Shown: positions 11,408 to 44,116 of the stretch, one piece after another
Layout of the letters: every line of letters begins with the position of its first letter
Position numbering within the stretch: position 1 is the stretch's first letter
From: Linanthus parryae
Taxonomy: Eukaryota; Streptophyta; Magnoliopsida; Ericales; Polemoniaceae
Direction: 5' to 3'
DNA length: 64,000 nucleotides
Assembly: GCA_023055425.1 (NCBI GenBank)
Contig: JALGPY010000008.1
Span: 20,867,359 to 20,931,358, forward strand
Notes under the pieces: generated by a model
Database searches by the model: none
What the model was told of the DNA's origin: nothing
What the model saw: only the letters and a program-made list of their open reading frames with translations
Position numbers and translations under genes: made by a program

Positions 11408-12909
11408 TCTGTTGCGTATCTCAATTATGGGATCAATACTAATATACTACTACAACATAATAAAATGTGTTTATAATTTAGGACAAATGACACTAAACCT
11501 GCAGTTTGACGTTTGTGACACTAAACCTCCAGTACTTTCAATTTACTTAAAAAACTCACTGCAGTTTGATGTTTGGTACAAATAGCCGCAATCGACTAAC
11601 GGTGTTATGAAATCCTAACGGAATGAATGGCAAAAATATATTTTTTCTTAAAAAATAATATATATATATTTTATATATGCAAGAATCATGTAAATATATA
11701 ATTCATTATAAAATGATGTTTTCTTAAAAAATAAAATAAATGATGTTATACTTTGAATTTCATTAAAAATACACATACCAATTACATTCTGCCTCTAAAT
11801 AAAATTTAGATTTTCTCACCAAGAAAAAAAGATAAAGGGAAAATAAGTCCAACTAAATAAAACAAAAAATAAAAAGAAACAGGAAAAGAGACTGAAATGC
11901 AGAAGAAGGAAGAAAGAAAGAAACGCAGGTCCGAGGCTTTTTTGACGGAGGCAAAGTGCTCGGGAACACTTGACAATTTCTTTTGCAAACTGCTCTTAAT
12001 TGGGGATGCAGTTGATGTAGAATGATTATGGGTCTCTGAGACTCTTGAGAACTGGACGATGCCTCGCTTTTCCGTGACCGACTGTGAAGACACCATTTCG
12101 TGAGTAGGTTGTGCCGGACTTTCCGACGACGAAAATTGATTTATTAACATGAGTCTTACATATATTAAAAAAAGAAATATTATTTTTTAAGAAAAAATAC
12201 ATTTTTGCCATTCATTCCGTTAGGATTTCATAACACCGTTAGTCGATTGCGGCTATTTGTACCAAACATCAAACTGCAGAGAGTTTTTTAAGTAAATTGA
12301 AAGTGCTGGAGGTTTAGTGTCACAAACGTCAAACTGCATATAGGTTTAGTGTCATTTGTCCTATAATTTATGAATAATTAATAATAAATTAACGTGACAC
12401 ATTAATCAAAGTATTTCACAAAAGATTTCATGTAGGCCTTGGATAACTGTATATACGAAGAAAGATACCGATTTCCTCTGTGGAACTTGTTTGATTCCCA
12501 TACAGTGATGTTAGTTTTGTATGCGCAGTAACTGCACTGGATCTAGTGCTATGAGGTAATGACTATTTTCTCATCATCGCAGGTTTGGTTTAATATTACA
12601 TGGTTTACAGCAGGATACCCTCCTAAAGTTGAAGCTTGCCCCCATAACATTAAAGTAGTGGAATTCATTGGCTTTCGTGGCCAACCAGGCGAAGTTGAAC
12701 TTGCCAGGTATATTATTGAGAATGCTGTAATGCTTGAAAAGATCACTTTTGATTCTGTCATAGCTATCAAAATTGCGTTTGATGGTGTAAGACCCGAAGG
12801 ATCACGGTTGAAGTATAAGAAGTCCGACATATATCAGATCCGCGCTAAAGAGTGTGCCAGAGAACTCGTAAAAAGCATTCCTCCTAGCGTAGAACTAATA
12901 ATAGTCTAG
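9941..12909 (+). CDS. F-box/LRR/FBD-type protein, at least three exons (5' end open)
   Basis: The exons I can support are 9941-10804, 10896-11033 and 12583-12909. All junctions are GT-AG and phase 0, ending at a TAG stop. The first exon encodes an F-box near its start (DRISELPHEIVLDILSQL, then RTSILSRKWRYVW), followed by leucine-rich repeats such as SLTSLHLVDVNITGELLQLF. The last exon carries an FBD-like end (VVEFIGFRGQPGEVELARYI ... ARELVKSIPPSVELIIV). By family knowledge such proteins act as substrate receptors of SCF ubiquitin ligases, with the F-box binding SKP1. The substrate is unknown. The start codon must lie in an unresolved upstream exon. Intron 2 (11034-12582) holds a 47-base T tract and a MULE-type insertion. 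Whether the gene is expressed is unknown, but the frame is intact across all three exons. Confidence 0.8.
11360..11406. repeat. 47-base poly-T tract in F-box intron 2
   Basis: An uninterrupted T run lies upstream of the intronic MULE. It could be the poly-A tail of an antisense retroposed sequence or simple slippage. I found no target duplication to decide. Confidence 0.85.
11481..12361. mobile_element. MULE-type TIR element in F-box intron 2
   Basis: The 881-bp element begins GGACAAATGACACTAAACC and ends with its inverted copy. The inverted repeats extend about 185 bp with few mismatches. It is flanked by a perfect 9-bp duplication TATAATTTA (11472-11480 and 12362-12370). The interior has a minus-strand open frame (about 12150-11806, starting MLINQFSSSESPAQPTHEM) that I do not recognise; it might be captured host sequence. 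No transposase is present, so it is non-autonomous. Confidence 0.9.
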
Positions 12910-15123: not shown

Positions 15124-16498
15124 GGAGTAGATGACCTAGAGTCAATCTTATCTTAGTATGAACAATGTTTTGGCTAGAGTATTTGTTATTTATGGAGATA
15201 TTTAATAATGAGGTCCTTAGATTACAGTTGTTGTTTATCTTAAATATTCCTAGTCAAGTATATTGATTAATAGGACAATCACTATGCATAGATACGAGTA
15301 TGTGGGTAGATTGATATGGAGATATCAAGTCTAACACATGTGTATGCAATAGGAGTAATGACATACTGGATTGACCCACCACGAGACGGCTATATATAAA
15401 TTATGTGAATGTCACAAGGGCTTCTCGTACTGACAATGGTGTTGTAGTCATTAGACTTAAAGTCACTAGATACTCTAGTTGTGAAATATCATGTTTTGAT
15501 CTCATCAAACGTTATAACATAACTGGGTAACTACAAAGATGATAATCGGACATGATATGAAGCAAGCTGAGAGATGGTAGTGATGTAGAGAGGATTTTTT
15601 CCCTCCCACATAATGGGAGCGAATATCCATGGGCCACTCGAGGGGTGGTGCTTATGGAATGTCTCGCCAGACTCAGATAAGTCGATATGAGATCATGATA
15701 TTATATGTATATATAAGCCTATTCCCAAGATAGAGAAACAGTGGATTGGATATACGAGTGTGACATTTATGTCTCGTGTTCAATCCGGGTATAGAGACAA
15801 AGGGACAATACTACACGGTAACATTGGGCACAAGGTTTGTCAGATCACTGACTATTTCAATTAGTTGGGTAGCATTGATGTGTTGCTAGACACCGCTCAA
15901 TGTTTTTAATTGTTAATACCAACTTAATAGAAACCTGCAGGGTCACACACTAAAAGGATTAAACTGGATACGCCTACTAATTAACAATCATATGGATCAA
16001 GGATCAAAACGCAATCACATGCAAAGTTAGTTAGACTAAGTTACAATGTGGACTAATCCGTGTATGGCCATGATTAGTACTGGGGCAAGTTTGTAATCAA
16101 TAATGATTTATTGACTATAAAAGGGGAGTCCTAGCTCTATTAATTCATAACAGTTGTTATTGAGTGAAATAACAGAGCAAGGATAGAAACCCCAAGAGGA
16201 GCCGTCCCCCCATACCCGTCGGCCTCAAGGTGGTTCGGCTACCTCTTGTCCGTTTTACATGATTGCTTGATCCCTTCTTTGACGTAGCTAGCACAAGGCG
16301 TGAAGGAGATCCCAGTTCTCAATCCCAAGGTGTGGGTACCGTAGAGACGATGACGCTATTTTTCGTTGTTATCACATTACAAGGTACATAATATCTCCTT
16401 TATCACGTTATGATAACTTAACCTGCGATTCATGGAGGAATTTGATCAGGAAAATTATAATTGTATATTTGTTGTGCATCATGCATCAAAACCCTACA
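15124..16498 (+). repeat. Copia 5' LTR
   Basis: It begins with GGAGTAGATGACCTAG where the 3' LTR reads TGAGTTGATGCCCTAG, so the 5' terminal TG is mutated. It ends AAAACCCTACA. A TATA-like TATAAAAGGGGAG near 16118 is conserved in both LTRs and could be the promoter. Confidence 0.85.
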
Positions 16499-24300: not shown

Positions 24301-24856
24301 AGCTTCTCAGCTCCTTTCTGGCTCGGCCTGCGTTTTGACCCGAAACTTGTCAAAATTACCAAAATACCCTGGGTCAAAGCTGCTCCAAATTCTGCCCAAT
24401 CCTGACTCTGGCCATAGGAAAAATGCTGACTGAATTTGGGAGACAAAATCCGAACTCGACTCCGGAACCCCGGGCCCGGTGCCAAAATGACCAAAATACC
24501 ACTGGTTCAGAATTGTCCCGGAAATCGTCCCGAACATGAAATAGTTGCTCACGACTCCGGACACCGGGAACTGCGACTCCTTACTCGGACGTGGCAGTCC
24601 GGGACCCACACTTGATGGGAGTTGGTTTTTTGTCCGGACTCCGTTTCAGCATTATAACCTGTTTTCGGAATGCCCTTGACGTCTCCGTTCTTTTGCCCCT
24701 AGTTTCACTTCCAAATTCCAAGTCAAGCTCAAGATATTGTCAACCGAGCGCATCCCGATCATTCTTTTTTTTAGTGTTTTCCTTTATCGGTCGGCTTTCA
24801 CTGCCCGTTTCTCCTCTAGTCTTTCCGTTTTCTGTTCCACTCTCCTTTTTACCCGT

Positions 24857-25481
24857 TGTGCACAAGAGATTCCGGCAGGGAGACCTCCGTGTACACCGTA
24901 CGTAGTGGATCAGGGATCGCACAGGAAGAATAGGGGTGTGTGTAGGGAGAGAGTAAGTCAGTAGCAATGTCTGAGAGAGAGACAGAGGTTTGGCAGAGCT
25001 TCCGCGTATGGCAGTGTGTCCCCCTTTGTATGGAAAGGTTAACGATATATATATACTGGAGAACATGACCGTTGTAGTGTGGTTAATGCGCCCATTAATG
25101 GCGGCTTAATTAGCTTAACCATAACGGCACGTTCGTCCGAGTATATAGGAACCGTTAGAGCACGTGGTGCGCGAGTACCGGAACCGTTACGAGGTTGACC
25201 GGGTTTGACCAGATTGACCGGGTTTATGGAGCTCGTGCCATAAATCTCTCAAAACAGTTACTAAAGGTCGCGCGCGGGCTTGGCTCGCACGCGACAGGGC
25301 TTACTCTAGCCTCCAAACCACAAAGTCCCTACAAGTCCCGTGCAGTGGTACCGAGGGCTCTGTCTCGCAGCCCCCACATGGATCAGCTCGGCTGGTGATC
25401 CTGTGTGTGTGGAGCACAATATGGTGTGCTGGATGGTTGCCACGTGGCCTAGATCTGCCATGTCATAAAGCAGTATCTACA
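24857..25481 (-). repeat. Tat 3' LTR
   Basis: In the element's own orientation it starts TGTAGATACTGC and ends TCTTGTGCACA. It is nearly identical to 39670-40295; differences are at GACCAGATTG versus GACCGGATTG and GGTACCGAGG versus GGTATGCGAGG. Confidence 0.95.
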
Positions 25482-25500
25482 TTAGCCCCCTTTCTGCGCG
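25482..25500 (-). promoter_or_regulatory. Polypurine tract of the Tat element
   Basis: The minus strand reads CAGAAAGGGGGCTAA directly before the 3' LTR start, as expected for the plus-strand primer. Confidence 0.8.
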
Positions 25501-26163
25501 TGAAGGCTCATAGCTGTATAGGCTTCCATGCGCGGAAACCAACATGCGCGTCGTCGCCACGCACCAATTCAAATACGGGTAGGTTCAGCCCCCGTGCGTG
25601 TCATTATGACCTAAAACCCCTAGAGTCGTGCCGTCTGACCTTTAGGGTTTTAGGCGTGACGTCAGCCCGTCCTGTGATTGCGCGACACGACGGTGACGGT
25701 TGCGATTCGACTACTGAAGGGACGCAACCCATCATTCTTCTGGATAAATACCTTGTATCCCATTATTGCAAAGCATTACTTCTTTCTCTTAAAGTGAATG
25801 GTACCCGGAGATCTTCAAGAGCAGATCCAGATAATCAATCACCAGTTCAGAACTGCAAATCGTATTCTCCAATTGTGTATATCCAAGCAAGCTTCAAGGA
25901 AACAAGGTTGGCCTCGTTTACTTTTGATTTAAAATACCAGTGTTTGCCTTGAATCGCGTTGAATCTGTAAATCCATGAAATTTGTGAAGAGGCTTTTGAT
26001 CTTTGAACCCGCTTCGTTTTAATCTTTCAACAATATCAACTCCCCAATTTCTGAAATCGGCACCGGAACTGTTTTCTTTGGTTTGCATAGATCTCAAATT
26101 CCAAAATTCAAACTGAAGTGTGGTGTGGTATTTCTCCCCCCTTTTTCTTGCCCTCTAGCAGGA
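25501..26163 (+). promoter_or_regulatory. Probable promoter and leader of the antisense PMD gene
   Basis: The stretch holds no conserved coding sequence. ATAAATA at 25744-25750 could be a TATA box. A pyrimidine-rich acceptor, TTGCCCTCTAGCAG, ends at 26161, two bases before the PMD start codon, so a 5'UTR intron is likely; I could not fix its donor. The neighbouring LTR could also contribute promoter elements. Confidence 0.4.
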
Positions 26164-29100
26164 ATGGCCAAGACAAGAGTAACCAGACCCGTCAAGGAAG
26201 ATGAAGAGATGCCGGAGCTTCCGCAGGCTCTGTGGCGTAAAGCCCCCTTTTTGGGTGGGAAGGATTTTTATCATGCGAGGATAAAGGCGAAGAGAATGCC
26301 TGATCCTGTTCCTGTTGAACAATTGCTGACGTTGACTCGCCCAGTTAACTCAGCCCTGCTCGAGTGGGTCGGTTCCGAGGATGTAGTCCGATTGGGGATC
26401 GAGAACGGGCACTTCCCGTATACTGCGATTTCTACTCAAGCGTTCGTCCAGAAATTGGACTATATGGATGAGTGGATCGACCACGTGTTGGATCATCACG
26501 CCGAGACTCTTGATAAAGCCGGCATTTTCTTTGCTATCCGTGCTATGAAGGGTGCTGCCGTGAAGTTGGATCAGTCCATGCTTCTAGACCTTCTATCCCG
26601 TTACTCGCCCGCGACTCACACGTTTCATTTTGCGGAGTTCGAGGCTGCCCCCACGCTCGAGGACGTTCAGATGCTGTATGAGCTTTCCCCCATGGGTGAG
26701 GTGGACCCCTTGAGTCACCTGAGGACATCTGCTGAAATGGCCTTGTACGCGCAGATGGAGGAGTGCCTAGCAGAGGTAAAGAAAATCTCCACTCGGTGGA
26801 CCACTACAAAGCCTCTTCCGAACTGGCAGCTGGTGGATACGTCTGCGAAGAATACCTGGAACAAGTGGTTGCAGTACTTCTTCCGAGACTATGCGAACAG
26901 CAGCATTACTAAGAAGCTTCAGAGTGAGAACCCGGAGGCCGAGAATTACGTAGAGGGCAAGGGTTATCATTTAACCCTTTGTGCCTTTCTCTGTGCTTGG
27001 CTGTCGAGGTATCTGATTGATGGTCACCCCCATGACGGGGTCTTCTACCATGTGCTGCCACTTGCCGTGAGGCTCGCTCTTGGCCAGAGAGTCGCACTCG
27101 GACCCTTGGTCCTGGGGACGCTATATTACAGGCTGGATCAGCTGGTTCTGGCGATGAGGGAATCGCGTGGCCGCCTCGATGTTCTGACCTTTGTCAATAT
27201 CAGCTTTTTGACAATGTGGGTTTTCGAGCGCTGGCCGTCTTATGCTCCAACTCCCCTCCCACTTGATAAGTGGTGTCCCCCAGGCGAGACAGAAGCGCGC
27301 AACAGCGGAAGGGCTGCGAGATGGTTTGGAGCAAGCAACACCAAGTGCACTTGGAGTTTGATATGCGACAAACGAAAGGAGTTTACTGCCAGGCCCTATG
27401 CCACACGTGTTGAGAATGTGCGGTGGTTTCCAAATCTATACCCTTCCAAAGGTATGGTCTTATCAGAAGACCTTCTCTTTGAAAAGGGACCGCATTTCCA
27501 CGAGCGCTATCGTGAGTTCTTTTGTTGGTGTCTGCGAGGTTCCCTTCCTGCCCTTGCAGAGCATATTCGTGAGCTCGCGCCAAGATACGAAAGGCTTACA
27601 GTGTATGTTGACCCCACTCGGGTCTCTCCTCAGTTTGGTTTTGATGCAGTGGCCCCATCGATCTGGCCCCAGTCTATTATCAGAGGGTGCTACAAGCGTT
27701 TGCTGACAAAGGAGTGCAAGACGGTCCTCATGAGCAATCTTCCCTTTGAGCAGCCTGCGGGAACTCGCAAGGGTGGTTGTTCCCAGAACTGGATCGCATA
27801 CTGGGTTGCCCAGCAAACGAGGATTGAGACGGAGGCGGCGGCGCAGCCAGGAAAGGCCCCCTTGATCAAGAGAAACTCTTTTCCGTTTCGCCCCAATTGC
27901 AGTTTGAGCGAGTCTGAGTATGGTTGCTACTCGCTGTGGGACCGCGAGAATCATTTGTGCCCCGATTTCATTCTGAAGGAGCAAGTCGGCGCAATCAAGA
28001 AGGGTGACGCGCAGGTCATCAAATATAGCAAGGCGTTTGCTGAGGTAAGCAATTTCCTTATGTGCTTTAAGCTTTTTGATTTCCTTGCGCTGATGCTTTT
28101 CGTTCTGTATTGTTCAGTGTCATGTGCGGAGGTTCGCAGCTGGTGATCGCTCCAAATCGCTGGTGGACACCATTGTTGCCACTAGAAGGAAGGGGGAGTC
28201 GTACCGGCTAGCATGGAGGATGGATGCCGAGGTCGAAACAAAAGTTCGCGGAGTCATGAACACTTTTGCTGACTCGCTGATAGACAACCCTCCGGCTCCG
28301 TCTCCTCCTAGAGATGACCCGTCCCCTCCAGCGACTGCGGCGCCGAGAGTGAAGAGACCTAGGCAAAAGGGAATTACGATTTCTTCCCCTAGGAGTGCTC
28401 CAACTTCTCCCCCAGTGAGGTCCCTTTCCATCAAGGACAAAGGCAAGGGTCGTATGCCCAGCAAAGTGCGAAAAGATCTCGCAGTTGAGACTTTCGTTCC
28501 ATTCAACCAAGAGGAGGAAGAGAGACAGGAGCCCCAGGCAAGTGATGAAGAAGAAGCAGCAGTTGTGATGTGCGAGGAAGAATCAGGAGGTACTTCCGTC
28601 GCATCTCCTTGCCCTTTATCTTGACTTCTTTGTAGTTCTTTTCTTTGAACCAAATATGTATTCGCAGATGATGATGATGAAGCCGTCGGTGGCCTTGTGG
28701 CCAAGAGGCAAAAGAGAGATGCCCATTCTGGCATTTCAAATGATCCTATAAGCGAGGATGTTCTTGCTGAATCCCGGAAGACAGCCGCGGAGGCTGCTGA
28801 AAGAAGAAGGCAGCGGGAGGAAGAGGAGCTCGAGCGTGTGAAACAGCGGAGCCTCGAGGAGCAGCATGTTGACGACTTAGTGCGTCCAGTTGGCGAGGAA
28901 GACGAGCTTCCCGAAGAAGTGGCTCCTCATGTGGAGGAGGAAGATGAGGTTCCTGGAGAGGATGCAGCAGAGCTAGAGCAAGTCCAAGCGGACTTCGCAG
29001 AGATCGCAGGTGGCGATAAAGGTGAGATCTTCAATCTCGCAGTTACTTATAGAGATGTAATTGTGGGTGCGTTAAAGCACGGTGTGTCAAAGCCTGACAT

Positions 29101-30446
29101 TCGCCGTTGGTTGGTAAGCAAATGCGGAGAACCCTCAGGTAATTATTTTGAGTGATATGCGCATACTAGGCTGTAGCCACTTGAGGCAAAATCATGACTG
29201 GTTTACTCGCATCCCAGGTCACGCTTCTCTTAAAGATTTGCTTAGTGAGGATACACTGATAGGGCACGGTTCCACGTCCCTAGTGTATGATGAGGATACC
29301 TCAATCCCACCTTCGCGTGGAGGTGCTTATTCTTAGCTTTAGTAAAGATAGCGAAATAACTTATAACACAAGTTACCTCACATTATCGCATTTGGCATCG
29401 CAGGTCATGCTGAGGAACCTGAGCTGGAGCAGAGAAGTCAGCCTTCTGCATCCCATGTTCCAATCTCGAGCTCCCATACCGAGAAGCCCGTCGCAGCCGC
29501 TGGACACGCAAGTGAGCATCTCGAGGATGTCATCGAACTCTCTGATGATGTCGAAGCTGATGCTGTGCCGATGGACGAAGGTGTCCGTACCGGTGGTGAG
29601 GAAGAAAGGACAAGTGATGCTAACATTTTCGCATCTGGGAGTGTCCTCCGCCCAGCGACTTCGGCTGTCCCTTCGCCTCCGGCGATGACTGAGCCAGAAG
29701 CACCTATTCCTGCGTGGAGCATTTGGGGCTCGCAGGTTGGGAATGTAGTCGCAGCTGGTGCGGCCTACACTCTTCCTCCTGACTATGAGAGGTTGGAGCT
29801 CGCAGCTGATAGGAGAGCTATGGAGCGAGGGAAGTCTTCGAACAACCCAGTGGCCCGCATCCCTTCTCTTCATGAAATTCTGGAAGGCACTGGTAAGTAA
29901 AGATTTACCGTTCGCACGTCGCATTATTTGCTTGCGAGTTCTGACATTATAACCATTTTTGATGTCTCAGGTTTGAAGCAAACCGATGTAGACTGGGTGG
30001 TTCGAATGCGTCTCAGATACCCCCGATCGTTTGTGAGATCTCTGGAGATCGGACCTTTTGACAGGAGGCTATTCCTTACTGAAGCCATCTGGATACTGGA
30101 GCAGCTGTCTGCGGCTACACCTGCGACCATTTCGGCCCAGAGTGCTGAATTGCTGTGTGGCATGTGCCAAAATCTCCTGTTCAAAGTCCAAGGCAGACTT
30201 GGTTTCAAATTCCTCAAGGACAGAGTTACACTGATTCGCGCAGCTGTAACTTTGAATCTCGGTCACCAGAATCTCGCAGCTGAGATGCAGAAGGTGGAGC
30301 AGCAAAAGCAAAAGGTTGATGAAGCTTTGAAGCTGTATCATGAAATGAATGCCAAGTGCGAGCAACTGAAGCAAGAAGTGAAACAAGTGGAGAAGCTGAG
30401 CGAGCAGTTCGAGCCCCAAGACTCCTTGATCAAGAATTTGTTTTGA
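26164..30446 (+). CDS. Plant mobile domain (MAIN-like) protein, six exons, antisense within the Tat element
   Basis: Exons are 26164-28044, 28118-28589, 28668-29138, 29218-29322, 29404-29892 and 29971-30446. All five introns are 72-81 bp with GT-AG ends, and the joined frame is open for 1297 codons to a TGA stop. The start is the ATG two bases after a good acceptor. Residues about 65-470 form a plant mobile domain (PMD), with SRYSPATHTFHF ... APTLEDVQMLYEL at 145-174, AFLCAWLSRYL at 274-284 and LGTLYYRLDQL at 317-327. A basic KRPRQKG patch, acidic linkers and a C-terminal coiled coil (KVEQQKQKVDEALKLYHEM...) follow. Host PMD proteins such as MAIN and MAIL1 act in the nucleus in transposon silencing and genome maintenance; the role of this copy is unknown. 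It lies tail-to-tail with pol. Similar antisense genes are, to my knowledge, reported for Tat elements such as Retand and Grande. The intron structure and intact frame suggest it is functional or recently so. Confidence 0.85.
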
Positions 30447-31839
30447 CTTTTCAAATTTTGAAAAGAAAACAGAAAAATGGCTGAAACATTAATGTAATGT
30501 TTTGAAACATTAATGTAATATTGCTAGGGTTTCTCCCCCCTTTTTTTTTTAACAACAAACAATGAGTTTGCCCGTTTAGCCCTTTTCGGGATTTGATTGG
30601 ACATTCCTGTGCATATCCAATTATGACATCAGCAACTGATTTTCTGCTTGATTTTCGCGCTAATTTCTCGGCAGATAAGCACGCTTCCGTTGGGAAGTCC
30701 ATCCGAATCATGACTATCCGTCATTTATTAGGATACGCAACTGAATCGTCGTAGCCTTTAGTAGGGTAATTGATCGTTACCGCTTTTCAAGGCGTAAGTG
30801 ATTGAACTTACCCTCTTTTTGAATTTTGCTGACTCATCTTAGGCTACCGAAGAGTCTCCACAGGGCCTATATAAACCCTGTCTTTGCCATTTGGGTTCTT
30901 CATCCCAAACATGTGCTTTGCCGTGAGTCCTTACGACTGCTGGCTTCAACGCTTGTTTTTCGTTGATTCATGGCAACTTCAAGTTTTGAATCCTGAGTTT
31001 GCGCTTTGTGCTATAGAAATAGTTTCCAAGATCCACTTTATGAGGCTTATTGCTGTTTATAACCATCATAAAGAGGATGCAGATAATACCTCATGTGTGT
31101 TCGAAGAAATTTCTTCGTGTATTATGTGTGCAGGTCATGTTTCCGGCCGCCTCGTGGCGAGGTGCAGCGCCGAAGTGACCGTGCTACCGTCTCGTAATGA
31201 CCGGCGGAATTCTTCTTCAGCATCTCCGAAGAAGAATCCGTTGCCCTCACATTTGTGAGGTCGGGGTGCTCGTCAATGCCCTTGTCCAACATGACAAGGA
31301 ATCCATCACCAGAGGAATGACTGCTTCGCCTGTTTTGCAGAGTAACATCTGTCGGCACAGGAAGCTCCTCCGGCGCCTATCTTGATTAGACAGAGGCTTT
31401 TGTCATTCCTTGGGGTCTTGGGCATATCGCATCTCCGATCTTGCTGCTAGGGATGTAGCGAATGACGAGTTGATCTCTTCGCGGCAACATCCCTTTTGCT
31501 ATAGATCTTTGGCCGCAGATCTGCGTGCTGCACTGCCGGTGTTAAGACCGGTGGATTCTCTCTTTTCTTAGCCGAGAGTTCCCCAGTGCATCTCTGGCTT
31601 ACCAGCCATTTTCGAATGTATTGTAAGCCATGTTGGCTGCGTAGTTAGATTCGAGCTTTTCGCTTGTAAGCTGTTATCTAGACAGATAAATTATAAGTCA
31701 TTTGACTCATAATGATATATAGCCTTTGTATTATCTGCTCTCTTTGCAACAAAATACAATTTCGCATGCGTTTCGGCTTGTTTTGCCTTGCATAATGCCA
31801 TGTAATGATTTCACATATGCGACGTCAATGCGCAGATGT
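30447..31839. other. Spacer 3' of the PMD gene inside the Tat element
   Basis: It begins with an AT-rich 3'UTR-like stretch with a duplicated AAACATTAATGTAAT (about 30484-30520). There are short open frames but no recognisable domain. It leads into the minisatellite. Confidence 0.5.
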
Positions 31840-33055
31840 TTCGCTAGATCATTCGAGATCGTAATTTCGCAGCTGTGCCATCTTGACGGATGGGCTTGCA
31901 GGTGGTCGTTGTAAATCGTATGAGATCACGTTCACAACTTTGCTATCGTAACAGATAGTTTTTTAACAGATCAATTAAGATCTTTGAGCGGTGCGAATTG
32001 CTATCATAGAAGATAGGCTTTATTAGAGAATTGCTTGAGATAGTTTCTCGCATGAATTGCTATCGCAGCAGATAGACCTTTAGAAGGTCTAGCAAGATGG
32101 TTCTGCAGTTACGTTGCCATCGTAACAGACGGGCTTGGGTGATCAACTAAAATCACTTTGCGTATAAATTGCTATCGTAACAGATAGGCTTGAGAAGATC
32201 ATATAAGATCGCATTTGTGTAAACCGCTATCGTGAGAGATAGGATTTTGATGATCGATTGAGATCGGCTTAAAAAAAGATCATATAAGATCGCACTTGCG
32301 TAAACCGCTATCGTGAGAGATAGGATTTTGATAATCGATTGAGATCGTTTTTGTATTTTGCTGCTATCGTAGGAGATAGGCTTTGGATGATCACTTAAGA
32401 TCGCATTTGCATTGGCTGCCATCGTAAGGGATGGGCTTTAGATGATCAATTAAGATCATATTTACGTTGACTGCTATCGTGGGAGATAGGCTTTGGATGA
32501 TCACTTAAGATCGCATTTGCATTGGCTGCCATCGTAAGGGATGGGCTTTAGATGATCAATTAAGATCGTATTTATGTTGACTGCTATCGTGAGAGATAGG
32601 CTTTGGATGATCACTTAAGATCGCATTTGCATTGGCTGCCATCGTAAGGGATTGGCTTTAGATGATCAATTAAGATCGCGTTTGCTATCGTAAGAGATAG
32701 GCTTTGATGATCAATTAAGATCGCGTTTGCGTTCGCTGCTATCGTAAGAGATAGGCTTTGATGATCGATTAGGATCACGTTTGCGTTTGCTGCTATCGTG
32801 AGAGATAGGCTTTGATGATCAATTAAGATCGCGCTTGTATTTGCTGCTATCGTAAGAGATAGGCTTTGATGATCAATTAAGATCGCGCTTGTATTTGCTG
32901 CTATCGCGAGAGATAGGCTTTGATGATCGATTAGGATCACGTTTGCGTTTGCTGCTATCGTGAGAGATAGGCTTTGATGATCAATTAAGATCGCATTTGC
33001 TATCGTAAGAGATAGGCTTTGATGATCAATTAAGATCGTATTTGTATTTGCTGAT
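31840..33055. repeat. ~54-bp minisatellite between convergent pol and PMD genes
   Basis: About twenty units share GCTATCGTAAGAGATAGGCT and TTGATGATCAATTAAGATCG. The unit is 54-55 bp in the cleaner right part (32350-33050) and more degenerate on the left. Each unit contains a short palindrome CTATCGTNAGAGATAG and a GATCAATTAAGATC-like palindrome. Tandem repeats in this position are typical of Tat elements and can seed genomic satellites. The 54-bp period keeps one minus-strand frame open for about 109 codons by chance; I do not treat that as a gene. Confidence 0.9.
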
Positions 33056-33277
33056 ATTGCAGCGAATAAATCATTGTTAACAGCAATAACAAATAAAATA
33101 GAGCGATATAAACAGCTAGAAATATGAACTTCTCATTTGGGAGAATTCTTTTATTATAGCATTCTCATATGGGAGAGATAGGATTACAATCCTCTCATAT
33201 GGGAGAGGAGATTGCGAATATCATAGCCACATGAGACATTAAGCAACGTTATCATAAAACGTATGAAATAAGAGAAG

Positions 33278-36200
33278 TCAAGGATAGTACTTCTTGATCC
33301 AGCGCATGTTGACTGAGCTTGGAGTTGAGGTTGTGACGTGCAACCTTCGTATGCTGCAGTAGCCGCTATCGAAGACTTCTGTGACTTCGAAGGGTCCTTC
33401 CCAATTAGCTGCGAACTTTGGGTGAGTTGCTTCTCGCATGCAGTGGTCAGATGCGCGCAAGACCAGGTCGCCAACTGCGAAATCCCGTCGCTGGACTGTC
33501 TTGTTATAGGCGCGAGCGATTCTTTCCTGGTACCGCTTGTTAGTCCTTTTGGCTTGTTCTCGCTTTTCTTCCAGCAGGACTAAATCATGATCGCGTTGAT
33601 TTTCATAGAGTGCATGGAAGGCCAGCCTTGCCGAATTGACTCTGACCTCCGCAGGTACTACAGCTTCGGCCCCATAACATAGTAGAAATGGCGAGGCCCC
33701 TGTAGGTGTCCTTGGAGAAGTTCTGTAGGCCCACAGAGCTATGTTAAGGGAGTCGGCCCACTTCTTGTGGTCATCTGCGACCATCTTGCTCAGAATTCTC
33801 AACAGCGTTTTGTTAGTCGCTTCGGCTTGTCCGTTTCCCTTTGGATAATAGGGGGTGGAGCATATCTGCCTGATATTGTACTCCGCGAGTTTCGTAGCTA
33901 CCTGGCGATTAACAAAAGGAGTACCGTTATCTGAAAGAATGGTATTTGGGATTCCGAACCTGCATACGATGTTTTCCTGGATGAAGTTAACCACAGCCAG
34001 CGCGTTTGCCGTCTTTAGTGGTATTGCTTCCACCCATTTGGTGAACAGCTCGGTTGCGGTGAGAATGAAATGGTTCCCATGTGACGTTGGTCGGATGGGG
34101 CCGATGAAGTCCAAAGCCCATGTGTGGAATGGCCATGGCGTCCCTAATGCATGTAGATCCACGGCGGGAGCGTGCACTAGGTTCCCTTTGAATTGGCATT
34201 CTTGGCAGCGTCGCACCTTGGTGCGGCAATCGACTTCCATCGTGGGCCAGAAGTATCCGATTGAGAGGAGTTGTCTGCATAATTTCGCACCTCCCTGGTG
34301 TTCCACCTGATGAGAAAGGTCCATGACTTCTTGTGCTTCCCTGCCGTCTAGGCATCGCAGCAAGTTGCCCTCGTGACCTCTTCGCCAAAGCAGGTTTTCC
34401 TGAACCACATATCGAGACGCTTTCCTCTTCAATTTGTCGGCTTCTTTTCTCGATTCGGGTACGGTGCCCTGGGTAAGGAATTCAAACAATGGCTTCCTCC
34501 AATCTGTGTCGTCATCGGTTAGAGCGACGAGTAGAGAATCTTTGATTAGTGCGCAACTTTCGCACTTCCCTTGTATCAGGGCTGCAGCTGTTGACATGCC
34601 TGGCCAATGAATGCCATATCTCTGAGCTTTCCTGTAGATTGACACCTCGCTTTCTCCGCAAGCGTGTTGGTGAATCTTTTCTAACAGCTGTTGTCCCTCT
34701 TGCTCGGAGACACATCGCATGAGTATTCCTCCAGGACCCTTGTAGTAAAGGGTGTTGTCGTGGATGCAGTATCCTTTCGTGAGTACCCAGCTTTCGCTGC
34801 TGGTGCCTTTCGCAATAGCTTGCAGGATTGCTTTTCGCCAGTCTGCGTCATCCATGTGTTCATCGTCGCACGCATCTTCTGTTAATGCCGACGATGTTCG
34901 CACTTCGATGGAAATCCTTGCGGGGCATTTGTCTATGCTGACCTTAGATCCCAGAGTTGCTAAGGCGTCTGCATGCCTGTTGTCCGCTCGGGGCTTGTGC
35001 TCGTATTTCACGTCGCAGAATTGCTGCATCAGCTTTTGCACTAGGGTGCGGTATGGCAGGAGGTTGATCTCCTTTAAACCATATTCGCCCGAGGCCTGCT
35101 TAACAATCATTTTGGAATCTCCCATGACTGTTAAGTTGCTCACTTCCAAAGCTTTCGCCGCACGGAGCCCCGCGATCAGAGCCTCGTATTCCGCCTCGTT
35201 GTTCGTGACTGCGAAGTTGAGTTTTGCGGACATCTGTATGACTTCCCCGTCCGGCTTTGTCAAGACTATCCCAATGCCTCCGCCTTTTCTGGTTGACGAA
35301 CCGTCGAAGTGGAGGGTCCAATAGGGCACGTCGATCGCGTAGATTTCAGGGCCTTCGAGCTCTTCCTCGATCACAGGTTCGTGACTGTTGTCGGGAAACT
35401 GTGCCAACAGATCTGCTACCGCCTGCGACTTGATCGCTCTTGGTTTCACGCATGTGATATCGTATTGAGAGATGGTTATGTACCATTTCGCCAATCTCCC
35501 GCCCGGAGTAGTGTGAGTTAGCAGGTATCTTATGGGGTCGCTTTTGGTGACCACCACTACTTTGTGCGATGCAAAATAGTGTCTCAACTTCTCTATTACG
35601 AAGAATAAAGCAAGGCAATGACGTTCGATGTCTGTGTACCTTGATTCAGCAGGCTGCACAATGCGAGAGATGTAATAGATGGGCCTCTCTTGGCCTTCAT
35701 ACACCTGAGCCAAGAGTGCTCCTATAGATTTCCTTGTCGATGTAAGGTATAGCAGAAGCGGTGACCCCAGTTGAGGCGCGATCATTATCTTTGGGGATGT
35801 GAGTAACTCCTTTAGCTTTTCGAATGCGGCTTCGTGATCAGGAGCCCAGTTGTACGCGGCGTCCTTCTTGAGAAGAGTGCTGAAGCAGCATGTGATTTCG
35901 GCGATTGCTGGGATGAATCTCCGCAGATATGACAATTTTCCCAAGAATGTTTTCAAGGTACTTTGGTCGTGAGGTGGCGTCATGCTGGTGATGGCTGACA
36001 CTTTCGCAGGGTCAGGCTCGATCCCTTGGCGATGGACTACGCATCCCAAAAACTTCCCCGAAGTCACGCCGAATGCGCATTTCATGGGGTTCATTTTCAG
36101 TTGAAAGCTCCTGCATCTGTTGAACACCTTTCGCAGGTCTGCAAGGTGATCTGCTTCATGCTTGGATTTGACTACCAAGTCATCCACATAGAATTCCACT

Positions 36201-36883
36201 TCTTTGTGCATCATGTCGTGGAATAGAGCCATCATGGCCCGCTGATAGGTTGCGCCTGCGTTCTTAAGACCGAATGGCATTACCGTATAGTTGAATACCC
36301 CCACGGGAGTGATGAATGCAGTTTTCCTTGCATCTTCGGGATCCATCTTGATTTGATTGTACCCGCTGAAGCCGTCCATGAAACTGAACATGCGATGGCC
36401 TGCCGTTGAATCAATGAGCAAATCGATGTTAGGCAGTGGGAAATCGTCCTTAGGGCAGAAGCGATTAAGATCTCGGAAGTCCACGCAGATGCGGAGCTGT
36501 CCGTTCTTCTTCACCACCGGCACGATGTTGGCCAACCATGTGGGATGGTGATTTGGCTCTATGAACTTGGCGTTTAGGAGTTTAACAATCTCCTGCTTGA
36601 TCTTCACGTTGAGCTCTGGCCTGAAGCTTCTGGTGCTTTGCTTGACCGGTTTAGACCCTGGGATGATGTCTAAACGGTGCATGGTGATGCTCGTGTCCAG
36701 ACCTGGCATCTCATCATATTCCCATGCGAACACGTCCTTGTATTCAGTTAGGAGCCGCAGCAGTCCTTGTTCCTCTTTGCTTGTGAGGTCCGCACTCAGG
36801 AAGACTGGCCTTTTCTTTTCCTCGTTCGGGCTGAGGAACACTTCTTTTAGCTCTTGCTTTTGTGGTCTTGGCCTGTCTTCCAT
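33278..36883 (-). CDS. Tat pol: RT, RNase H, archaeal-type RNase H, integrase
   Basis: The frame has 1201 codons from the first ATG and is open further upstream to the TGA at 37018-37016. RT spans about 80-280 with YVDD at 232-235. The first RNase H (about 370-480) has lost its first catalytic Asp (YLTSTRKSIG). The second, archaeal-type RNase H (about 520-645) has D527, E564, D589 and D639. Next come two zinc-binding-like modules: a degenerate one (H738, C774, C777) and a normal HHCC one (H858, H862, C893, C896). The integrase core has D925, D985 and E1021. There is no chromodomain. The dual RNase H is the Tat hallmark. The protein would copy the element RNA and insert the cDNA. The frame is intact within this segment. 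Confidence 0.95.
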   Translation of the reverse strand: MEDRPRPQKQELKEVFLSPNEEKKRPVFLSADLTSKEEQGLLRLLTEYKDVFAWEYDEMPGLDTSITMHRLDIIPGSKPVKQSTRSFRPELNVKIKQEIVKLLNAKFIEPNHHPTWLANIVPVVKKNGQLRICVDFRDLNRFCPKDDFPLPNIDLLIDSTAGHRMFSFMDGFSGYNQIKMDPEDARKTAFITPVGVFNYTVMPFGLKNAGATYQRAMMALFHDMMHKEVEFYVDDLVVKSKHEADHLADLRKVFNRCRSFQLKMNPMKCAFGVTSGKFLGCVVHRQGIEPDPAKVSAITSMTPPHDQSTLKTFLGKLSYLRRFIPAIAEITCCFSTLLKKDAAYNWAPDHEAAFEKLKELLTSPKIMIAPQLGSPLLLYLTSTRKSIGALLAQVYEGQERPIYYISRIVQPAESRYTDIERHCLALFFVIEKLRHYFASHKVVVVTKSDPIRYLLTHTTPGGRLAKWYITISQYDITCVKPRAIKSQAVADLLAQFPDNSHEPVIEEELEGPEIYAIDVPYWTLHFDGSSTRKGGGIGIVLTKPDGEVIQMSAKLNFAVTNNEAEYEALIAGLRAAKALEVSNLTVMGDSKMIVKQASGEYGLKEINLLPYRTLVQKLMQQFCDVKYEHKPRADNRHADALATLGSKVSIDKCPARISIEVRTSSALTEDACDDEHMDDADWRKAILQAIAKGTSSESWVLTKGYCIHDNTLYYKGPGGILMRCVSEQEGQQLLEKIHQHACGESEVSIYRKAQRYGIHWPGMSTAAALIQGKCESCALIKDSLLVALTDDDTDWRKPLFEFLTQGTVPESRKEADKLKRKASRYVVQENLLWRRGHEGNLLRCLDGREAQEVMDLSHQVEHQGGAKLCRQLLSIGYFWPTMEVDCRTKVRRCQECQFKGNLVHAPAVDLHALGTPWPFHTWALDFIGPIRPTSHGNHFILTATELFTKWVEAIPLKTANALAVVNFIQENIVCRFGIPNTILSDNGTPFVNRQVATKLAEYNIRQICSTPYYPKGNGQAEATNKTLLRILSKMVADDHKKWADSLNIALWAYRTSPRTPTGASPFLLCYGAEAVVPAEVRVNSARLAFHALYENQRDHDLVLLEEKREQAKRTNKRYQERIARAYNKTVQRRDFAVGDLVLRASDHCMREATHPKFAANWEGPFEVTEVFDSGYCSIRRLHVTTSTPSSVNMRWIKKYYP

Positions 36884-37015
36884 GCATTCGGGCGCTTCTT
36901 TGAGTTTCTCGTCCGGAGTGCCCTGTGTTGGCTCTTCCGTCAGCGCAACTTGCTCGATTTGATTGTTTTGCCCAGGGACACCCCCATGCCCGTGTGAGGA
37001 CGTCCCCGCGCACCT

Positions 37016-38209
37016 TCATATGCGATAGCATTTCTTCCCGTTGGCGTAGAAGCTCTCTATCTCCTTACCCTCGGGGTCATGCTTTGCGATCCTCTTCAGA
37101 GTGTACACATTCTTCCGATGATATGCGATGCGCGGCGCCTCTTCGTGTGTAGGCGGCTTTTCCTTGGCATCTCCCCTTGTCACCATCACGCCTGCAGGTG
37201 ACTGGTCCTTGATGTCCTCCCAGAGAGGTAAGGGAGTAGGGTTGAATGGTCCGGGTGTTTTCTCGTCCGCCATCTCGGTGAACCACACCGCCTCGCTGAG
37301 ATGTGCTTCGTCCAAGTTGAACGGGTTAGTTGAGGCCGGTATCTCGACAATCCTGTCGTTCCAGATAGCTTTCATCACCTGGTGAGCCGTCGAAGGGATT
37401 GCGTCAAAGCGATGAATCCAGGCCCGACCTATGATCATGTGATATGTGGTGTTCGCGTCTATGACATAGAACTTCGCCGAGCACTTGATTTTGCCGATCT
37501 GAACGCCCAGGCGGATCCATCCGATCGTCATTCTAGAATCGCTTCCGAATCCCACCAGCGGGGATGGACGCTTGACTACCTTGTGCTCGGGGATCCCTGC
37601 TAGCTTCAGTGTGTGGAGTGGAACAACATTGACCGCTGCTCCTCCATCGACGAATGCTCGCTTGAATTCGACGCCGTTGATGATGGCGGTCACGTACAGG
37701 GGCCTCTGGTGGCTCGCATCTGTCTTCTTGTCGCTGGCAGAAAAGGTCATAATCTTTTCTGTGAAACGGGACGCCCTGAAGACTTTCCCGTTGGAGACCA
37801 CGAGGTCCTCCTCGTAGTCCTCTGCTACCCTTAAGATTGCTTTTGTCATGTCCGCTCGACATTTTTCGGAGAAGTTCATCTCGTTGAAGAATTTGTCGAA
37901 GCCGTGCGACCCTTTCATGCGGTCGGCACGCTCATCTTCCGTGTCCATGCTGTAGTCTTCATCTTCATGGACTTCAGCAATGATGGGCAGACCATCTTCT
38001 GCGACTTCTTCCAAGTCCACTATCGAGATCATGGCGACCTCTTTGCCCTTTGAGCCCGAATCTGTATGGGCAGGCAGCGGGTTGTTGCGCACATCCTTCC
38101 GGTGGTCGCTGACGATGAGTTCGCCGTTCTTCTCTTCTGATCGAACGCGAATCTGAGCTTCTTGCACTCGGCTGTGGGGTGCATGACCTTGCCGTGGTAT
38201 TCGCACCAC
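37016..38209 (-). CDS. Tat aspartic protease segment of the polyprotein
   Basis: The frame holds the retropepsin-like active site FVDGGAAVNVVP (residues 187-197), with D-G-G in place of D-T/S-G, followed by a conserved YHMIIGRAWIH motif. It would cut the polyprotein. It overlaps the end of gag by about 180 bases in a different frame and has no good start of its own, so it is expressed only through a frame change from gag. It ends at a TGA (37018-37016), after which the same frame continues open into RT. The C-terminal part (KCYRI before the stop) may be linker. Confidence 0.85.
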   Translation of the reverse strand: MVRIPRQGHAPHSRVQEAQIRVRSEEKNGELIVSDHRKDVRNNPLPAHTDSGSKGKEVAMISIVDLEEVAEDGLPIIAEVHEDEDYSMDTEDERADRMKGSHGFDKFFNEMNFSEKCRADMTKAILRVAEDYEEDLVVSNGKVFRASRFTEKIMTFSASDKKTDASHQRPLYVTAIINGVEFKRAFVDGGAAVNVVPLHTLKLAGIPEHKVVKRPSPLVGFGSDSRMTIGWIRLGVQIGKIKCSAKFYVIDANTTYHMIIGRAWIHRFDAIPSTAHQVMKAIWNDRIVEIPASTNPFNLDEAHLSEAVWFTEMADEKTPGPFNPTPLPLWEDIKDQSPAGVMVTRGDAKEKPPTHEEAPRIAYHRKNVYTLKRIAKHDPEGKEIESFYANGKKCYRI

Positions 38210-39627
38210 TTAGGGTCCCTCGTCATCTCCTTGGAGGGTGCTTTCTCGAGCGGTGGCAGGACGCCGTCCTTACGCCACTGTCTGCAGAGATCGCTCGCTT
38301 CCTCCACCGAGCATGGCAGAGGTGGTGCATCGAAGTTTGCAACCTTTGCTTGCTTCTGGGGCGAAACTGTGTTGACCTCAGCTTCGCGTCCCCGCTTGTA
38401 GCCAAATCTGCCGATCTTGTAGGTGGTGCCGCTCGCAGGTCGTTCTGGAGCGCTCTTCTTTCTCTGTCTCTCGACAATGGGCTCGATGTTCATCGTGCAT
38501 TCGATGAGCTTTGAAAACGTTGGTGTTTGTAAATTGATCAGCATGCTTTTGTATTCATCTCGCATGCACTGCAGGCATATCTCTACGAGCCGGCTTTCGA
38601 GCATTGGATCCTTGCACTCCAAGGACTTCGCTCTGAATTTCTTGATGAAAGTGATTCCATCTTCCTCGCGTTTCTGATACATCCGCGAGAGATGGATCAT
38701 CGTCACCTTTTCTTCCATCTGGAAGAACTTGGTGTAGAACTTCTGGACCATGTCGTCCCAAGTTTTCACAGATCCGGCCTCCAATGTTCGGTACCATTTG
38801 TATGCTACATTCCCAAGAGTTTTTGGGAATTCTCGCATCAGCAGCTTGGGATCAGCTCCGTATGGACCCATGACATCGATGAAACGCATGACATGCTCAT
38901 GAGCGTTTCCATTGACGTCCTCGAACTTGTCCCATTTGGGAGCCTTGTACCCCGCCGGGTTAGGCATGAGATAGATCTCTCGTGGGATGGGTGGATCGTT
39001 GTCTAGCTTCGGGATGATGGTATCCGCGAACGACTGATGAGCCAAGATGGAGTCCACGCGCTTCTGCAAAGACGTCATGCATTCTGGAATGCTTCCCTCG
39101 GTAGTTGGCGGAGGGGTTGCCGTAGGCGGTGGCGACACATATGCCGCCGGAGGATTGGGAGTGTATTGACTACCCGCGTTTCCCCAGATTGTCGCTGGTG
39201 GAGGCAGAGTGTACTGCAGAGCTGGGTTGGACGCCAAAGCCGGGGGCTGAGAGGCGTGAGCAGCAGGGGGCAGCATTTGTGCCGTTGACCCTTGGACCGA
39301 AGGCAGCTGCGTGGCCGACGGTGGAGTTTGCAGATGAGGGTTGGGAGGCGTGGCCGACACTCCCAATCCTGGAGCGGTAGGGGTTCCTCCTCCCTGAGGG
39401 ATAGCGGTGGCAGGTGGAGGATTTGGCGCAAGAGTGCCCAGAACGGCCAAGATCCGTTCTAACTGCGCGGATTGAGACTTGAGAGCTTTTGCCTGACTTT
39501 GGACAGTGGCGTCCAAAGACTCTAAAGTTGGCGCCTCGCCGGGAGTCGTCGGAGTACGGCGAGCCTCGTCTCCCGAGGGAGTTTCGGTGGAAGGAGATCG
39601 GTTGCTGACATCGTCCTCCTGAGACAT
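38029..39627 (-). CDS. Tat gag capsid protein
   Basis: The 532-codon frame starts with ATG (MSQEDDVSNRS) about 20 bases after the primer-binding site. The N-terminal third is rich in Pro, Ala and Thr. The retrotransposon gag core runs about 215-370 (MRFIDVMGPYGADPKLLMRE, VAYKWYRTLEAGSVKTWDDM). A zinc-knuckle-like CEYHGKVMHPTAEC lies at about 470-485. Gag packages the RNA in cytoplasmic particles. The last ~30 codons after the knuckle look unlike gag, while the overlapping protease frame looks authentic there, so the true frame changes near 38124-38142. Confidence 0.9.
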   Translation of the reverse strand: MSQEDDVSNRSPSTETPSGDEARRTPTTPGEAPTLESLDATVQSQAKALKSQSAQLERILAVLGTLAPNPPPATAIPQGGGTPTAPGLGVSATPPNPHLQTPPSATQLPSVQGSTAQMLPPAAHASQPPALASNPALQYTLPPPATIWGNAGSQYTPNPPAAYVSPPPTATPPPTTEGSIPECMTSLQKRVDSILAHQSFADTIIPKLDNDPPIPREIYLMPNPAGYKAPKWDKFEDVNGNAHEHVMRFIDVMGPYGADPKLLMREFPKTLGNVAYKWYRTLEAGSVKTWDDMVQKFYTKFFQMEEKVTMIHLSRMYQKREEDGITFIKKFRAKSLECKDPMLESRLVEICLQCMRDEYKSMLINLQTPTFSKLIECTMNIEPIVERQRKKSAPERPASGTTYKIGRFGYKRGREAEVNTVSPQKQAKVANFDAPPLPCSVEEASDLCRQWRKDGVLPPLEKAPSKEMTRDPKWCEYHGKVMHPTAECKKLRFAFDQKRRTANSSSATTGRMCATTRCLPIQIRAQRAKRSP

Positions 39628-39647
39628 GGTTGCTTTTGCTGATAAGT

Positions 39648-39665
39648 TTCACGTCGGGTTCACCA
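39648..39665 (-). promoter_or_regulatory. Primer-binding site of the Tat element
   Basis: In element orientation TGGTGAACCCGACGTGAA starts four bases after the 5' LTR. The TGG start matches the CCA end of a tRNA; which tRNA is not identified here. Confidence 0.7.
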
Positions 39666-39669
39666 AAAA

Positions 39670-40295
39670 TGTGCACAAGAGATTCCGGCAGGGAGACCTC
39701 CGTGTACACCGTACGTAGTGGATCAGGGATCGCACAGGAAGAATAGGGGTGTGTGTAGGGAGAGAGTAAGTCAGTAGCAATGTCTGAGAGAGAGACAGAG
39801 GTTTGGCAGAGCTTCCGCGTATGGCAGTGTGTCCCCCTTTGTATGGAAAGGTTAACGATATATATATACTGGAGAACATGACCGTTGTAGTGTGGTTAAT
39901 GCGCCCATTAATGGCGGCTTAATTAGCTTAACCATAACGGCACGTTCGTCCGAGTATATAGGAACCGTTAGAGCACGTGGTGCGCGAGTACCGGAACCGT
40001 TACGAGGTTGACCGGGTTTGACCGGATTGACCGGGTTTATGGAGCTCGTGCCATAAATCTCTCAAAACAGTTACTAAAGGTCGCGCGCGGGCTTGGCTCG
40101 CACGCGACAGGGCTTACTCTAGCCTCCAAACCACAAAGTCCCTACAAGTCCCGTGCAGTGGTATGCGAGGGCTCTGTCTCGCAGCCCCCACATGGATCAG
40201 CTCGGCTGGTGATCCTGTGTGTGTGGAGCACAATATGGTGTGCTGGATGGTTGCCACGTGGCCTAGATCTGCCATGTCATAAAGCAGTATCTACA
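39670..40295 (-). repeat. Tat 5' LTR
   Basis: 626-bp partner of 24857-25481, next to the primer-binding site and gag. It lies beside the right-hand CCCGT duplication. Confidence 0.95.
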
Positions 40296-40620
40296 CCCGT
40301 CTCGGTCAAATCCTGCTCCGAGCATTTTCTGCACGTTTCCCGAGGCAAATCCGATTCTGTCTCGGCACACATCCCAATTCACTTCCCGAACCTGTTCCTG
40401 TAAAGACAACATGAACAAACCCGCGATCATATCTCGAAATGCGCAAAATAAGCATAAATTCATGAAGAGCTTATAAACATCTCGTTCTAATTTCCTAGGC
40501 TTTTAGAGGGTGAATTCTAGCTAAAACACGATTTTCCGACACAATGGCACGTCAAATCAGGCTAAAAGATAACCTCTATTTGGGCATTATCAGTATACTA
40601 GATGCACCCGATTGGCTCTA

Positions 40621-40639: not shown

Positions 40640-41988
40640 TGAGTTGATGCCCTAGAGACAATCTTATTTTAGTTGAACAATGTTTTGGATAGAGCATTAA
40701 TTTATTATTTATGGATATATTTAATATAAGGAAGTCCTTAGATTACAATTGTAGTTTATCTTAAATATCCCTAGCCAAGTATATTGATTAATATGACAAT
40801 CACTATGCATAGAGACTAGTATGTGGGTAGATTGATATGAAGATATCAAGTCTAATACATGGGTATGCATTAGGAGTAGTGACATACTTGATTAACCCAC
40901 CACGAGAAAGCTACATAAATTATGTGAATGTCACAAGTTCTTCGCTAAGTGACAATGGTGTTGTAGTCTTCATAATTGAAGTCACTAGATACTCTAGTTG
41001 TAAAATATCATGTTTTGATCTCGTCAAACGTTAAACCATATTTGGGTAACTATAAAGATGATAATCGGACATGATAGGAAGCAAGCTGAGAGATGGTGGT
41101 GATGTAGAGAGGAATTTTCCCTCCCACATAATGGGAGCGAATATCCATGGGCAACTCGAGGGGTAGTGCTTACGGAATGTTTGACCAGACTCAGATAAAT
41201 CAATATGAGATATTGATGTTATCTGTATAGATAAGCCTATTCCCAGGATTGAGAAACTGTGGATTGGATATACGAGTGCGACATTTGTGTCTCGTGTTCA
41301 GTCCGGATATAGAGACAAAGGGACAATACTACACGGTAACATTGGAGACAAGGTTTTTCAGATCACTGACTATTTCTATTAGTTGGGTAGTATTGATGTG
41401 TTGCTAGACACCACTCAATGTTTTAATTGTTAATACCAACTTAATAGAAACATGCAGGGTCACACACCAAAAGATTAAACTGGATATAGATGTTAATTAG
41501 TAAGACTAATTAACAATTATATGGATCAAGGATCAAAACGCAACCACATGCGAAGTTAGTTGGACTAAGTTGCAAAGTGGACTGATCCGTGTATGGACAT
41601 GACTAGTACTGGGACAAGTTTGTAATCAATAAGGAGTTATTGACTATAAAAGGGGAGTCCTAGCTCTATTATTTCATAAGAGTTGTCATTGAGTGAAATA
41701 ACATAGCTAAGAGAGAGACCCAAAGAGGAGCTGTCCGTTTTGCGTGATTGTTTGATCCCTTCTTTGACGTAGCTAGCACAAGGCGTGAAGGAGATCCCAA
41801 TTCTCAGTCCCAAGGCGTGAATACCGTAGAGACGAGGACGCTATTATTTGTTGTGATTACACAAACTTACAAGGTACATAATATATCATTTATCACAATA
41901 TGATAGCTTAACCTGCGATTCATGGAGGAATTTGGTCAGAAAAGTTATAATTGTATCGCCGCTGTGCATCCTGCATAAAAACCCTACA
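40640..41988 (+). repeat. Copia 3' LTR
   Basis: It starts TGAGTTGATGCCCTAG and ends AAAACCCTACA, followed by the AATTT duplication. It is the partner of 15124-16498. Confidence 0.9.
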
Positions 41989-43243: not shown

Positions 43244-43819
43244 TGCAACAACCCGCGTTATCCGGCTCGGGACGAGACCGGGAGGGCGATGCTTAATAGA
43301 ATTGGCGGAGATCAAAAATAATAAAATCCACAACACATATTTATAACATTAAACAACTATATTAAACTTTAAGTCTTACACACTTGTTGGTTACTATTAC
43401 ACAGTAATTACCTAACATTTCTATATCAACTAATGGTAGCGTTCATATTCTAAGTGAGTCTCGCGCCCCTTCTATTCTATAATTCCCCAGCTCCTAAACC
43501 TGCGGTGGGAAGGAAAACAAGAATCGCAGTTTTCGAAAGTCAGCAATAAATACTGAGTGAGAAACACCTTAGCATGTAAAGCAAAAAAGATGAACTATGT
43601 TGGATCACGAGTTAAATAAGATAATAGTAACAGAGTATGAATAAATATTATCAGAGTACACAACGGTATAAATAAGTGCTAATAAGAAACATTCAGATAA
43701 TCATCAAATTTCTAATTAATTATTTCACAAGTTTCCTTGACCACCCAAAACACAAGTATAATTAACGGTTTCCCAATATAGAGTCAAAGAAGCTAGATTA
43801 TTATGCACAGTACCGGAGA

Positions 43820-43993: not shown

Positions 43994-44116
43994 TAGTAAC
44001 ATATTCCGGTACGTGCGACATTCCACTTTACGTTATTAACGAATTATTATTTTTCGTGTAACAGTTTCAAAGATATCTTTTCCAAACGTAACCAAAATCA
44101 AGTAAAGCATGTGAAC

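Follow-up and report, generated by a model that had tools for sequence, protein, structure and literature searches.

The window analysed here, a 64,000-nucleotide stretch of the Linanthus parryae genome (assembly GCA_023055425.1, contig JALGPY010000008.1, positions 20,867,359 to 20,931,358), carries a complete Ty3/Gypsy long terminal repeat (LTR) retrotransposon on its minus strand and, within that element, a plus-strand gene whose product contains a plant mobile domain (PMD). The gene runs in the opposite orientation to gag-pol and is located between pol and the 3′ LTR. With moderate confidence, we interpret it as an antisense accessory gene (of the ‘eORF’/‘aORF-3R’ class) of a recently inserted Tat-lineage element, with a nuclear product that would aid the element. 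The components of this interpretation differ in strength: the anatomy and class of the element are held with high confidence; expression as a spliced protein-coding gene is probable; an anti-silencing role specifically, which is suggested by analogy, is a tentative proposal.

The gene model comprises six exons in the region 26164-30446, which join without a stop to give a product of 1297 amino acids (aa) followed by a stop codon. Exon 1 (26164-28044) encodes the entire PMD match; exons 2 (28118-28589), 3 (28668-29138) and 5 (29404-29892) were recovered in the spliced open reading frame (ORF) search described below; exon 4 (29218-29322), of just 105 nt, is the weakest of the set by codon usage and splice scores, and its length means that skipping it would leave the frame intact; exon 6 (29971-30446), which includes the stop, encodes a K/E/Q-rich C-terminal end. 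The five intervening introns are all of the GT-AG type, with lengths of 73, 78, 79, 81 and 78 bp. In-frame stops are present in four of the five, and the remaining one, intron 1, is open and shifts the frame. The introns have a lower GC content (0.36-0.43) than the exons (0.48-0.56). Introns 1, 3 and 5 score well at both donor and acceptor. With gag-pol as the training set for codon usage, the annotated frame ranks best of six in five of the six exons.

To gauge how far such a frame exceeds chance, we used dynamic programming to find the longest spliced ORF within 26001-30600, with up to eight introns of 60-150 nt. Under a strict splice rule, which was chosen after the gene model was known and is hence not blind, the search recovered exactly the five modelled introns and 1297 codons, whereas 1000 dinucleotide shuffles had a median of 125 and a 99th percentile of 260 codons and reached 390 at most; a chance origin of the frame is thereby rejected. 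When any GT-AG pair was allowed, the optimum was a different path of 1315 codons with six introns (shuffle median 496, maximum 745 codons), or of 1309 codons when limited to at most five introns. The opposite strand of the same region yielded 285 (strict) and 798 (permissive) codons. Elsewhere in the window, nine stretches of 4.6 kb, of which three are entirely inside the array of 3.57-kb repeats, yielded on either strand no more than 283 (strict) and 615 (permissive) codons. A strict search on both strands of the flanking segments 30447-33277 and 25482-26164 found at most 116 codons. Thus, the coding stretch is far beyond chance, while its exact introns depend on the strict rule: since the permissive paths gain 12 to 18 codons over the model, a chance choice of introns is not fully rejected.

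The product matches the Pfam PMD family (PF10536) over aa 122-498 with an E-value of 5.8e-26 and 91.9 bits, well above the curated family cut-off of 34.9. The C-terminal 670 aa, comprising over half of the protein, show no Pfam family above cut-off. Residues 628-1200 contain 19% D+E, and six basic clusters are seen in the product; two of them, beginning at aa 706 and 797, look the most like nuclear signals and could serve in nuclear import. By eye, the K/E/Q-rich end encoded by exon 6 looks like a coiled coil. Two upstream signals are speculative: an ATAAATA at 25744-25750 (plus strand) as a TATA-like antisense promoter candidate, and a strong, very pyrimidine-rich acceptor at 26138-26161 (26158/26161; plus strand) just before the ATG, as the candidate end of a 5′ leader intron with a possible donor at 25794. 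Past the 3′ end of the PMD gene, a plus-strand TATATAA precedes a 124-codon ORF without a Pfam match (30868-31258), a possible second antisense transcript.

Several observations weigh against this gene model and the function we attach to it. By codon usage, the annotated frame leads by only 0.003 in exon 3 and by 0.001 in exon 1, its own score being slightly below zero in the latter; in exon 4, of 105 bp, it ranks fourth of six. Introns 2 and 4 have weak splice sites, with 41% of the AG sites in the region scoring no worse than the intron 2 acceptor; these two introns and exon 4 are hence provisional. Read-through of intron 1 to its natural stop would produce a 660-aa protein that keeps the whole PMD, and as the domain thus needs no splicing, exons 2 to 6 might not be required. 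For exon 1, AlphaFold modelling with no alignment reached a mean pLDDT of 35 and gave no usable fold; a search of PDB sequences had a best E-value of 0.49. No relative was found among the protein-collection candidates scored for the 1297-aa product (7991) and for exon 1 (7996), or for exon 1 in viral contigs or prokaryote genomes, collections that may hold little plant sequence and whose negatives consequently say little. A gag query in prokaryote contigs likewise gave no useful match, and the matches of pol to viral contigs (80 loci listed of 250) all fall within residues 512-656, the RNase H region. An Rfam scan gave no match.

The host element spans 24857-40295 (15.4 kb, minus strand) and displays the full complement of features of a complete insertion. 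Its 3′ LTR (24857-25481, 625 bp) and 5′ LTR (39670-40295, 626 bp), both on the minus strand and both bounded by TG...CA, are 99.5% identical in a pairwise comparison (two substitutions, one indel) and are flanked by copies of the 5-bp target-site duplication CCCGT at 24852-24856 and 40296-40300. A primer binding site (PBS) was read from the sequence at 39648-39665 (minus), which we take to fit the 3′ end of the plant tRNA-Trp, and a polypurine tract adjoins the 3′ LTR at 25482-25494 (minus). The minus-strand coding regions are the gag ORF (38029-39627; Retrotrans_gag, E 5e-7), the protease ORF (37016-38209), whose aspartyl protease matches are weak and below the Pfam cut-offs, and a 1201-aa ORF (33278-36883) with, by Pfam, reverse transcriptase (RT), RNase H (RH), a second RNase H (aRH) and integrase (INT) regions. 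A tandem repeat array with a unit of ~54 bp (32195-33057; 14.6 copies at 32278-33057) separates pol from the antisense gene. The protease frame differs from the gag frame and overlaps the end of gag (36883-38209 region, minus), and the protease and RT ORFs share one frame with a single TGA and 132 bp between them; the frame shift and the TGA may be bypassed by recoding or splicing, or may be lesions in this copy.

The order of Pfam domains in the pol ORF is RT_RNaseH (aa 374-474), RVT_3/RNase_H (523-643) and integrase (848-1014). Because an aRH between RH and INT is a mark of the angiosperm Tat (Ogre/Retand) elements (PMC6317226), the element is, on its domain order, assigned to the Tat lineage of Ty3/Gypsy, as an Ogre or a Retand. 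These two are not separable here: Ogre is favoured by the presence of a PMD and by the missing TRP28 match, but not by the LTR size or by the PBS, presumably for tRNA-Trp. TRP28 (PF04195) was absent from the 1297-aa product at E 0.1, from the C-terminal 670 aa and the 660-aa read-through product at E 10, and from the ORFs 25395-25952 and 30884-31258 at E 0.01, these being the antisense frames of 25482-33277 that were scanned. In the pol ORF we also observed a duplication before the integrase core, with residues ~678-777 aligning to 791-896 (31/109 identical, E 6e-15 in a two-sequence BLAST); it appears from this alignment to be a second, diverged integrase zinc-binding region, and Pfam reports a single H2C2 stretch in the ORF (848-897).

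The insertion is recent. At 7e-9 substitutions per site per year, the two LTR substitutions (624 sites used, 625 aligned) correspond to an age of ~0.23 million years (My). With the faster rate of PMC6123737 (1.3e-8), the age is ~0.12 My. An earlier note on this DNA had described a very young Tat retrotransposon that carries, on the strand opposite to gag-pol and between pol and the 3′ LTR, a PMD gene of six exons. The exon and element coordinates, the two LTR substitutions with an intact 5-bp duplication and the position of the aRH all bear this out; the roughly 1297 codons and five GT-AG introns of its model are likewise recovered under the strict splice rule, with the intron range amended from 72-81 to 73-81 bp.

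Taken together, we envisage that an antisense promoter would drive plus-strand transcription of the accessory gene, and that its product would enter the nucleus and act on host chromatin or RNA regulation to the benefit of the element. The host PMD proteins MAIN and MAIL1 act in the silencing of transposable elements (TEs) (PMC5418596; PMC7156037). As MAIN and MAIL1, with PP7L, silence transposons, the product would most plausibly compete with or decoy host PMD complexes of the MAIN/MAIL1/PP7L kind. A counter-silencing role has been proposed for TE-encoded PMDs (PMC8616336) and suggested for those captured by MULEs (PMC5418596), and the role of TE-encoded PMD proteins is described in print as an open question (PMC8616336). 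The earlier note's label of ‘MAIN-like’ holds insofar as the PMD domain is common to both; nothing further supports it, and the published Gypsy PMDs fall in other clades (PMC5418596). Its argument that the introns stay in the gag-pol genomic RNA, their splice sites being on the other strand, is sound as an inference: because the introns run in the direction of the gene itself, the RNA that is reverse-transcribed would hide the splice sites, and the gene would be copied with its introns, which in turn would speak against an origin from a spliced mRNA. The most elaborate version of this scenario, wherein the spliced antisense PMD protein binds PP7L/MAIN/MAIL1-type partners and shields the element from methylation-independent silencing, with its introns hidden in the genomic RNA, is improbable when taken as a whole.

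Three other explanations have to be weighed against an accessory gene that acts on host regulation. In the first, which we consider unlikely, the frame was transduced or hitch-hikes as a passenger, does nothing for the element and looks intact only because the insertion is young. Over the LTR-derived age, a neutral simulation placed ~6 substitutions in the coding exons and left the frame intact in 44% of the runs (8% at three times the divergence), with assumed values for the indel share, the transition/transversion ratio and the disabling share. This suits a passenger, and because neutral decay leaves the frame whole so often, the inference of selection from an intact young copy, which the earlier note had drawn, is rejected. 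Nevertheless, earlier rounds of replication had to preserve the ancestral five-intron frame of 1297 codons, when at this base composition 4.5% of random codons are expected to be stops; moreover, PMDs are recurrent in the Ogre lineage (PMC6317226) and are not a private capture, if the element belongs there. The length of the open frame and its recognisable domain argue for constraint, in the past of the family only.

Alternatively, the protein might serve the element's own life cycle, in a manner unrelated to MAIN/MAIL1 silencing, for instance in the nuclear import of the integration complex, in particle assembly or in transcription from the LTR. The accessory proteins of retroviruses have served as the model for proposing such roles for antisense accessory genes (PMC7264820; PMC11963269), and with no Pfam family above cut-off in the C-terminal 670 aa, most of the protein shows no visible link to host PMDs; against this, its sole recognisable domain is one that is common to host silencing factors, and we rate the life-cycle role as a doubtful but serious contender. 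The least probable of the three is that the antisense transcript matters rather than the protein, by pairing with gag-pol RNA and feeding or modulating small interfering RNAs, either as copy control or as a silencing trigger. Transcripts of this kind have been proposed as regulators (PMC7264820), and in the tea plant 175 phasiRNA loci are reported at PMD genes, with phasiRNAs targeting PMD transcripts (PMC10673657). On the other hand, a pure RNA role needs neither 1297 open codons nor a recognisable domain nor frame-preserving introns. The antisense-RNA and protein explanations are compatible, not exclusive.

For the preferred interpretation as an accessory gene, this copy, with its near-identical LTRs and apparently complete gene, is a usable test object for the role of TE-encoded PMDs: it supplies exon borders for RNA mapping, a frame for dN/dS analysis and a full-length product for interaction assays with MAIN, MAIL1 and PP7L. 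If the introns are real, capture of a spliced mRNA would be an unlikely origin for the gene, and the structure would bear on whether Gypsy PMDs are host-derived DNA or the ancestral form.

In the surrounding window, a direct repeat of ~1.36 kb with 85-89% identity flanks the Tat element (15125-16498 and 40641-41988), and its left copy is followed by TGGTATCAGAGC, which we presume to be an initiator-Met primer site. The young Tat element seems to be nested in an older plus-strand LTR retrotransposon. Further along, at 43244-60656, a 3.57-kb unit is repeated in tandem about five times, with 98.2-98.8% identity between copies by pairwise BLAST. Each unit contains 29-bp and 81-bp minisatellites and has a GC content of 0.35; it shows no open stretch over 138 codons and no Rfam match. 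A 301-aa plus-strand ORF (9908-10813) with F-box and At1g61320-type LRR domains is, on these domains, predicted to be a plant host gene or a fragment of one. An inverted repeat of ~230 bp, 92% identical with its arms 430 bp apart, is found at 11475-11703 and 12134-12368. A 178-aa plus-strand ORF (62245-62781) has a weak, below-cut-off match to the mitotic checkpoint (MAD) family; since the antisense ORFs of Retand are reported to show MAD matches (PMC11963269), it may belong to another Retand-type element.

Comparable components are known from several systems. Both PMC9289625 and PMC5418596 credit Steinbauerova et al. 2011 with the finding of PMDs in Gypsy elements. In a survey of LTR elements the PMD was the most frequent atypical domain (PMC9289625), and according to Neumann et al. 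2019 (PMC6317226), 57% of Ogre elements carry it. The Ogre-type eORF/aORF with a PMD (PMC6317226) shares with our element a PF10536 domain outside gag-pol, an aRH between RH and INT, and non-coding tandem repeats. Unlike the Ogre PMD eORFs, the frame here is antisense, divided into six exons and 1297 aa long; introns in PMD eORFs go unmentioned in the accessible portions of PMC6317226. Ogre elements have a spliced stretch (mean 274 bp) between the gag-pro and RT-RH-INT ORFs; here 132 bp and one TGA lie between the protease and RT ORFs. The PBS of Ogre is for tRNA-Arg (PMC9289625), and that of this element is putatively for tRNA-Trp.

The Retand antisense ORFs resemble the gene in position, orientation and the tandem repeats next to pol, and the 625-bp LTR is close to the Retand mean of 635; on the other hand, the antisense protein here lacks a TRP28 match, and the stretch from pol to the 3′ LTR measures 7.8 kb as opposed to 2.9-6.6 kb in Retand (PMC11963269; PMC7264820). 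Retand antisense ORFs encode TRP28 and five other named domain types, with an antisense TRP28 ORF in all but two of the Retand clusters; in the accessible portions of that source, the PMD is not among the domain types named (PMC11963269). The antisense gene of maize Grande, situated at the corresponding place in that element, is reported to be transcribed from its own promoter and to have a nuclear product, and that of Retand to be weakly expressed (PMC7264820). Among PMD clades, those from Gypsy elements are A1 and A2, and MAIN/MAIL1 constitute clade C (Ikeda et al. 2017, PMC5418596). The gene is likened to the former by its domain and its Gypsy host, and to the latter by the Pfam profile, the published clade of MAIN/MAIL1 being different from that of Gypsy PMDs. 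VANC21 of VANDAL21 (PMC8616336) furnishes a precedent for a silencing suppressor encoded by a plant TE, VANDAL21 being, unlike the LTR element here, a DNA transposon. A limited check of the open-access literature found no description of a multi-exon or intron-bearing antisense PMD gene, which is a weak negative. As PMD passengers in Gypsy elements have long been known, this gene adds a well-preserved example to a kind already described, with its six-exon structure as the one unusual feature.

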